Positions 17,003 through 18,769 of a DNA stretch of 39,057 nucleotides are shown here, one piece after another; the first letter of the stretch is position 1, and every line of letters begins with the position of its first letter. The position numbers and the translations under genes are program-made. The stretch spans positions 1 through 39,057 of the forward strand of contig JAJZKQ010000004.1 of NCBI GenBank assembly GCA_021804095.1. The letters are read 5' to 3'. The notes beneath the pieces were generated by a model, which was not told where the DNA came from, made no database searches, and saw only the letters and a list, made by a program, of their open reading frames with translations. Source of the stretch: Microcaldota archaeon. Lineage in GTDB: Archaea > Micrarchaeota > Micrarchaeia > Micrarchaeales > CABMGC01.

Positions 17003-18553
17003 CTACCTGTATCTATAAAACATGTATGCTGTCGAGATGTAGAAGATTCCGTATCCTATAAGCCAGAGACCACCATACAGGTTATTTATCATCACTGCAA
17101 CAATTCCCAAGAGAAAGAGTATGCCTGAAAAGGCGGTTTCTACAATTGAGTTCTTAAGCGCAAATATTATGTTCTTTTCAGATTTAAGGAAAGATATTCC
17201 TGTCCACGAATTCTTCACTGTCTTGCTGAATACCGCAAAAAGAGCAGCCTTGGCCCTTATAAACGCAAGCGCAAAATTAAGAAGCAGCATCATAAACCCT
17301 TTCTTCAGTGATCCGAAATAAAGTTTTGTTACTATAACTGGTGCCATAAGGGATAACACGAAAGCAAGAACCCCAAGCGTCTCGAATATCATCTCAGGGC
17401 TGCCCAGAAGGAAGCCGCCAGGTATGATCATGTTTGGTACTACAGTAAGGCCCGAGAAGACTATTGCAACAGAAACAATAGTGAAAATTATCAATACTAC
17501 CGATATGTAATTCAGTCCGAAGCCGTGTGTGACATAATCAACAAGGAGCCATTTTGATTTAGGCTTCTTGTTACTCTTTCCAAGCAACTTCCCTACAAAA
17601 TATCCTAGAAACTGTGTATCTCCATAGTTGTATCTCCACTGCTGCTTTGCAAGATGGCTGAATTTAGTTATAGGCGCTCCAAGAGCATAATGCCTTGGTA
17701 TGTAAATGCTCTCGTATCCATTTGCATCCGACTCAAAGCTGAAGAAAGTATCTTCAGTGACATATTCCGGAAAGCCTCCTATCTTCTTCAGGTATGATGT
17801 CCTTATAATGCCACATGACCCTGCGAATATTCCTGTATTATTCAGGGCTCTAGAAGGCTGTATGAACTTGAAGAAAAACCCATGGAATATGTCTACCGTG
17901 TCAGAAAAGAAGGTCCCCTTCTGGAATCTCTTTTCTGTCTGTGCATAAGATAATTTTTTGTTGTTGAAATATGGGAGCAGGTCCAGAATGAATCTGGTAT
18001 CGACAAGATACTCGTCGTAATCAAAGATGGCAAGGAATTCCTCCTTAGCATTCATTGCAAAATTGTTAAGCGCGCCTGCCTTGAAATTCCTTCTGTCATC
18101 CCTATGTATGTATCTCACATTGTGCTTTCTCGAGAACCTCTCAAGTTCTTTCCTTATTGCAGGATCTGTAGAATCATCCAGAAGGTAGAAGTTGACCCTG
18201 TCCTTGGGATAGTCAACCTCCATCAACCTGAGAAAGTTCCTCTCGGTCATTGCTGTGTCTTCATTGTATACTGGCACCGCTACCGCTACAAGAGGAAATC
18301 CTTTCATAGGCTTAAGTTTTTTCTGTATCTTCTCAAGATGCTTGTCATAAAGATATGATCTGTAGTAACTGTACGATGTGAATGTGTTGAAGAACCCTGA
18401 TACCGCGGAAAGTATAAGGAAGGCTAAGGCAACAACTCTGCCGAGAATAGTATTTGTTGCTACTATCAAGTATACCGAAAATCCTATCCCAAGTATTGTA
18501 AGAACCGAAAACAGAAAGATCGAAATTCCTCTCATTGCAAGATTCTTATCCAT
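17003..18553 (-). CDS. GT2 family glycosyltransferase, multi-pass, cellulose-synthase-like
   Basis: The 516-residue protein has two N-terminal hydrophobic helices, a cytoplasmic GT2 domain and about four to five C-terminal helices. Catalytic features are PVYNE (94-98), DDS (126-128), DYDE at 178-181 (an Asp-Tyr-Asp-Glu variant of the usual DAD/DxD), TED (266-268, catalytic base) and QQWRY (304-308), the Q-x-x-R-W-like motif of processive enzymes. This set suggests synthesis of a polysaccharide or glycolipid head group and its passage through the membrane. The frame stays open upstream through the antisense of tRNA-Ser, so that part is excluded. I chose this ATG because TTTATAATG on this strand lies about 30 bases upstream. 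Confidence 0.86.
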   Translation of the reverse strand: MDKNLAMRGISIFLFSVLTILGIGFSVYLIVATNTILGRVVALAFLILSAVSGFFNTFTSYSYYRSYLYDKHLEKIQKKLKPMKGFPLVAVAVPVYNEDTAMTERNFLRLMEVDYPKDRVNFYLLDDSTDPAIRKELERFSRKHNVRYIHRDDRRNFKAGALNNFAMNAKEEFLAIFDYDEYLVDTRFILDLLPYFNNKKLSYAQTEKRFQKGTFFSDTVDIFHGFFFKFIQPSRALNNTGIFAGSCGIIRTSYLKKIGGFPEYVTEDTFFSFESDANGYESIYIPRHYALGAPITKFSHLAKQQWRYNYGDTQFLGYFVGKLLGKSNKKPKSKWLLVDYVTHGFGLNYISVVLIIFTIVSVAIVFSGLTVVPNMIIPGGFLLGSPEMIFETLGVLAFVLSLMAPVIVTKLYFGSLKKGFMMLLLNFALAFIRAKAALFAVFSKTVKNSWTGISFLKSEKNIIFALKNSIVETAFSGILFLLGIVAVMINNLYGGLWLIGYGIFYISTAYMFYRYR

Positions 18554-18638
18554 TTTAAACATCATTCTACTTTGTAATACATTATAAATGAAAGACGAAT
18601 AAGAATATAACCTTACATATTTAAATAAACAAGCATGT

Positions 18639-18766
18639 GCCGGGATGGCAGAATCCGGTATCGCGCCAGAACAAATAGGCGAAACTCGAGATCTGGTGGC
18701 CTTCGGGCTTTTTGGGTTCAAAAACAGCTCCCTCTGGCAGGAGCAATGAAAATCCCAATCCCGGCG
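18639..18766 (+). tRNA. tRNA-Ser (CGA) with two introns, one in the T-loop
   Basis: The acceptor arms GCCGGGA (18639-18645) and TCCCGGC (18759-18765) pair perfectly, and the discriminator is G. Anticodon stem CCAGA/TCTGG encloses 21 bases; removing 14 (about 18670-18683) leaves loop CTCGAGA with anticodon CGA. The long variable arm GGCC-TTCG-GGCT confirms class II. T-stem TTGGG (18712-18716) pairs with CCCAA (18754-18758), but 37 bases lie between; removing 18723-18752 (30 bases) leaves loop TTCAAAT. TTCA (18717-18720) pairs with TGAA (18747-18750) between two 3-base bulges, exactly the bulge-helix-bulge expected. In the first intron CGCC (18664-18667) pairs with GGCG (18678-18681). Mature length would be 84. 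One A-C mismatch is seen in the D-stem. ATATTTAAATA near 18617-18627 is its likely TATA box. Confidence 0.9.
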
Positions 18767-18769
18767 CAT

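Follow-up and report, generated by a model that had tools for sequence, protein, structure and literature searches.

The window, a stretch of 39,057 nucleotides, almost certainly carries a functional, single-copy tRNA-Ser(CGA) gene whose predicted transcript holds two archaeal-type splicing-endonuclease introns, at positions 30/31 and 59/60. It is contig C32 of an 811-kb, 41-contig, 83%-complete assembly from a Micrarchaeota MAG related to ARMAN-2. The gene, its intron boundaries and the presence of an endonuclease gene are evident from the letters and from comparison with relatives, and we infer that the transcript is made, cut and ligated.

The gene and its mature form

Removal of 18670-18683 and 18723-18752 from the locus (Table 1) leaves an 84-nt class II tRNA with a 7-bp acceptor stem (GCCGGGA/UCCCGGC), a 5-bp anticodon stem (CCAGA-CUCGAGA-UCUGG), a 4-bp variable arm (GGCC-UUCG-GGCU) and a 5-bp T-stem (UUGGG-UUCAAAU-CCCAA). 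This spliced cloverleaf, with its long variable arm, anticodon CGA and G73, bears out the Ser(CGA) identity given in the initial annotation, as does the comparison with orthologues. Both intron intervals and the 84-nt mature length proposed there are likewise upheld by pairing and by intronless alleles in relatives. The 3' CCA is not encoded.

Table 1. Coordinates of the tRNA-Ser(CGA) gene, its parts, the antisense reading frame and other T-loop-intron tRNAs of the genome
Feature	Position	Strand	Basis
tRNA-Ser(CGA) gene	18639-18766	+	128-nt locus read directly from sequence
Exon 1, nucleotides 1-30: acceptor 5' strand, D arm, start of anticodon stem; 3' end GCGCCAG	18639..18669	+	layout same in 72 orthologues
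Intron 1, 14 nt, position 30/31, AACAAATAGGCGAA	18670..18683	+	carried by 68/72 orthologues
Exon 2, nucleotides 31-59: anticodon arm, variable arm, T-stem 5' strand, TTCAAA	18684..18722	+	sequence, pairing
Anticodon CGA, decodes UCG (serine)	18687..18689	+	loop CUCGAGA between CCAGA/UCUGG after removal of intron 1; invariant in orthologues
Intron 2, 30 nt, position 59/60, T-loop, AACAGCTCCCTCTGGCAGGAGCAATGAAAA	18723..18752	+	presence/absence in relatives, inner-helix statistics
Exon 3, nucleotides 60-73: U60, T-stem 3' strand, acceptor 3' strand, discriminator G73	18753..18766	+	sequence
Antisense ORF, family 2 glycosyltransferase	17003..18769	-	longest form covers the tRNA; PF00535 match from residue 163
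tRNA-Arg(UCU), T-loop intron	G000:C33:37817-37910		
tRNA-Arg(CCU), T-loop intron	G000:C4:17180-17300		
tRNA-Ala(GGC), T-loop intron	G000:C3:55435-55560		
tRNA-Leu(CAA), T-loop intron	G000:C19:10749-10848		

Among 19 distinct spliced orthologues, cloverleaf positions are paired in 97.8% of cells, against 90.2% when shuffled and 21-52% when slid; eight pairs have changed on both sides, with a covariation score that no shuffle matched. The window gene has an A.C mismatch at D-stem pair 12-23, where several relatives have G-C or A-U. When the 84-nt sequence is folded by itself, an alternative structure is favoured over the cloverleaf by 5.9 kcal/mol.

It is very improbable that the locus is a decaying pseudogene with random insertions, UCG being decoded by another tRNA. 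Two insertions are indeed present, and a tRNA-Ser(UGA) in the same genome (L034) could in principle read UCG by wobble. However, apart from 12-23 the stems are fully paired and are kept across 72 genomes with compensatory changes, the intron ends are conserved, and no other Ser(CGA) copy was found. The initial annotation had held that another intact tRNA-Ser(CGA) would make this one a relic; none was detected in the 83%-complete genome, so the gene looks no relic, and, because of that degree of completeness, another copy could be missing from the assembly.

The neighbouring gene encodes a class I (Trp/Tyr-type) tRNA synthetase whose closest named relatives are found in Candidatus Micrarchaeota MAGs; its nearest relative overall (93%) lies in another MAG. 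The same tRNA adjoins the synthetase gene in that nearest MAG and in one Micrarchaeota MAG.

Automated calling was expected to miss a gene of this kind, and neither ARAGORN, intron options included, nor the Rfam tRNA model at its gathering threshold detected it; a tRNA-Ala at 2239 was detected by both. The expectation that an antisense protein start had been extended over the gene also fits what was found. The longest form of a glycosyltransferase reading frame on the opposite strand starts with an ATG at 18769 and covers the tRNA. It appears mis-started, since the next in-frame Met is at 18565 and the PF00535 match begins only at residue 163. No support was found for the first 68 residues of the longest form; they are probably not real, and the true start is likely 18565, 18562 or 18553.

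Two introns compared across orthologues

DNA and covariance-model searches of relatives, with the regions fetched, yielded 73 tRNA-Ser(CGA) genes, of which 72 were parsed and one (L135) could not be parsed and was excluded. The sample is non-random, consisting of genes recognisable to the searches, and the intron proportions given below are therefore not population frequencies. The genomes are drafts with kinship labels taken from the search tool, and absence in a single MAG may reflect a missing contig. Across this set the introns diverge while the exons stay fixed. Two genomes without either intron (G034 and G151) have 84-nt genes of the same sequence, and the G034 gene equals, letter for letter, the spliced exons of the intron-bearing congeners G010 and G153.

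The 30/31 intron is present in 68 of the 72 genes, with a length of 11-15 nt in 66, 18 nt in one and 45 nt in one, and is cleanly absent in the other four (G034, G151, G053 and G048). It ends in GGCGAA in 67 of 68 cases and in GGCGAG in the remaining one. The 45-nt example (L178, G056:C38, sister family) is AT-rich and keeps the GGCGAA end. In 21 introns the first base directly after CCAG is T or C, which places the site at 30/31 in the anticodon stem and assigns A31 to the 3' exon. The 14-base interval of the initial annotation thus stands, but its placement in the anticodon loop gives way to one in the stem, as the CCAG-T and CCAG-C junctions of relatives reveal.

In the window gene, GGCG of intron 1 can pair with exon CGCC (18664-18667). 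This central helix is all that the intron offers: the outer helix has at most 1 bp and there is no inner helix, so that the strict motif of outer, central and inner helices with two 3-nt bulges is not attained. For this reason the intron is filed under the published relaxed class (BHL/HBh'-like) and not as strict BHB. A short inner helix is possible in some relatives, e.g., CAC/GUG in L070.

Could the 14-nt element instead be an extension of the anticodon arm retained in the mature tRNA? That almost every sampled orthologue has it, and that its GGCGAA end is fixed, would suit such a role. However, it is missing without any other change from G034 and G151 while the congeners G010 and G153 carry it (spliced exons identical to G034 at 84/84 positions), it ranges from 11 to 45 nt with otherwise free sequence, and it would break the anticodon stem. 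Retention can be given hardly any credence, and the element is best read as an intron with precise presence or absence and unchanged exons.

The T-loop intron has a narrower distribution. It is 14-45 nt long and of divergent sequence, and occurs in 37 of 47 genes from the same family and on one contig binned to the sister family; the other 24 of the 25 sister-family genes are without it. Every gene that lacks it reads exactly TTC[AG]AAT, so the proposed site at 59/60 is confirmed, its presence or absence in relatives being precise and the T-loop exon sequence unchanged. The single exception (L154, G195:C18:17419-17558, labelled sister family) is a tRNA-Ser(CGA) with the introns of the other family, and its 30/31 intron is the same as that of family member G017; it is possibly a misbinned contig or a transfer. 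In genus g24, four genes (L159, L160, L175 and L176) differ in the variable arm, the T-stem and the presence of the T-loop intron, differences that could represent gene replacement rather than simple intron loss.

Pairing within the T-loop introns was compared in 31 distinct sequences, leaving out G195 and also G015 and G167, whose closely similar introns end in CGGACAA. Exon UUCA is fixed, and the matching four intron bases are UGRR in 30 of the 31. In 18 of the 31, an inner helix of 3 bp or more sits flush on the 3-nt bulge, where 3.2 would be expected and none of 5000 reshuffles gave more than 9. In the window gene the inner hairpin is GCTCC/GGAGC, and a helix between exon TTCA (18717-18720) and intron TGAA (18747-18750) is possible. 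The initial annotation had described an exact bulge-helix-bulge here. Its 4-bp TTCA/TGAA helix and 3-nt 3' bulge (AAT) are possible, but the 3-base bulge on the 5' side is not borne out: AAAACA lies opposite AA, forming a 6x2 internal loop. RNAfold leaves the central helix unpaired in the minimum-energy structure, with the motif 0.6 kcal/mol above that minimum. The strict form occurs in many relatives.

The looser 5' side and the absence of the central helix from the minimum-energy fold are what would favour a T-loop insertion kept in the mature tRNA. Against this, the element is exactly absent in other members, many relatives have the strict motif, 59/60 is a published intron site (PMC4090602), and four further tRNAs of the same genome have T-loop introns. 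The chance that the 30 bases are retained is accordingly minute, and excision as an intron is the preferred reading. The pseudogene, retained-extension and retained-insert readings were all rejected on the comparative data.

The four further tRNAs, Arg(UCU), Arg(CCU), Ala(GGC) and Leu(CAA), have T-loop introns of about 15-36 nt, and tRNA-Ser(CGA) is thus one case of a genome-wide habit; the Rfam model gave no match at the Arg(CCU) gene. Introns at 59/60 had been taken to be rare outside some Thermoproteales; in this archaeal order such introns are normal and not exceptional. A tRNA-Leu(UAA) of the same genome (L038, G000:C36:14980-15085) has an apparent D-loop intron of roughly 20-25 nt.

Splicing endonuclease and relation to known systems

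A broad-specificity endonuclease would be needed to remove such introns and was looked for, as the initial annotation had advised. The genome encodes one PF01974 protein, of 386 aa, the only splicing endonuclease found, which can be aligned over almost its full length with 4FZ2, the epsilon2 enzyme of ARMAN-2 (E=1e-143). Counting along this alignment shows conservation of Y236, H251 and K282, the catalytic residues published for the epsilon2 enzyme, and of its ASL lysine K161 (PMC6379350). An epsilon2 endonuclease is expected to be one three-unit chain of about 390 aa that has the catalytic Tyr, His and Lys and the ASL Lys, and the 386-aa protein agrees on each point. Epsilon2-type endonucleases are reported to cut both BHB and relaxed BHL introns (PMC12397907; PMC6379350).

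This enzyme would cut both introns of the transcript. At 30/31, cleavage would follow CGCC-AG and GGCG-AA; the motif there is relaxed, being built on the pairing of exon CGCC with intron GGCG and having hardly any outer helix, if one at all. At 59/60, cleavage would follow TTCA-AA and TGAA-AA. A ligase would then join the exons into the 84-nt tRNA.

Both 30/31 and 59/60 are among the listed noncanonical sites of archaeal tRNA introns, which range from 11 to 129 nt (PMC4090602), and ARMAN-1 and ARMAN-2 are among the organisms listed with multiple-intron tRNAs (PMC4033280). The multi-intron tRNAs of ARMAN-1 and ARMAN-2, cleaved by epsilon2 enzymes (4FZ2, 9W2K), share with the present case the phylum, the endonuclease type and its catalytic and ASL residues, as well as several introns at noncanonical positions with relaxed motifs (PMC4033280; PMC6379350; PMC12397907), although these are other species than the window host. 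Thermoproteales such as Pyrobaculum also have tRNA genes with as many as three introns each, spread over numerous noncanonical sites (PMC4090602; PMC4033280), but Pyrobaculum has an (alpha beta)2 endonuclease (PMC6379350), whereas the window host has the epsilon2 type and belongs to another phylum. A literature search for Micrarchaeota with noncanonical introns gave no match under that wording. As the two positions, introns as short as 11 nt and the ARMAN multi-intron tRNAs are all published, the gene belongs to a known class; judged from sequence, it is a new and very well supported example of that class.

Possible intron turnover in a single tRNA gene

The balance tips slightly towards this one gene documenting intron turnover in its Micrarchaeota order, with a widespread 30/31 intron that has a fixed GGCGAA end and is missing cleanly from some species, and a T-loop intron mainly of one family, almost free in length and sequence but with its splicing helix kept. 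If this is correct, the identical exons of intron-bearing and intronless congeners would make the gene an exceptionally clear natural record of introns gained and lost. From the 72-orthologue set, with the intronless alleles serving as controls, one can read the minimal sequence that an epsilon2 endonuclease requires. The gene is also a tRNA that escaped both searches, ARAGORN and Rfam, and over which an antisense reading frame extends. The order-wide intron series of this gene, in which the splice determinants are fixed and some congeners have no intron, may merit a specialist's note.
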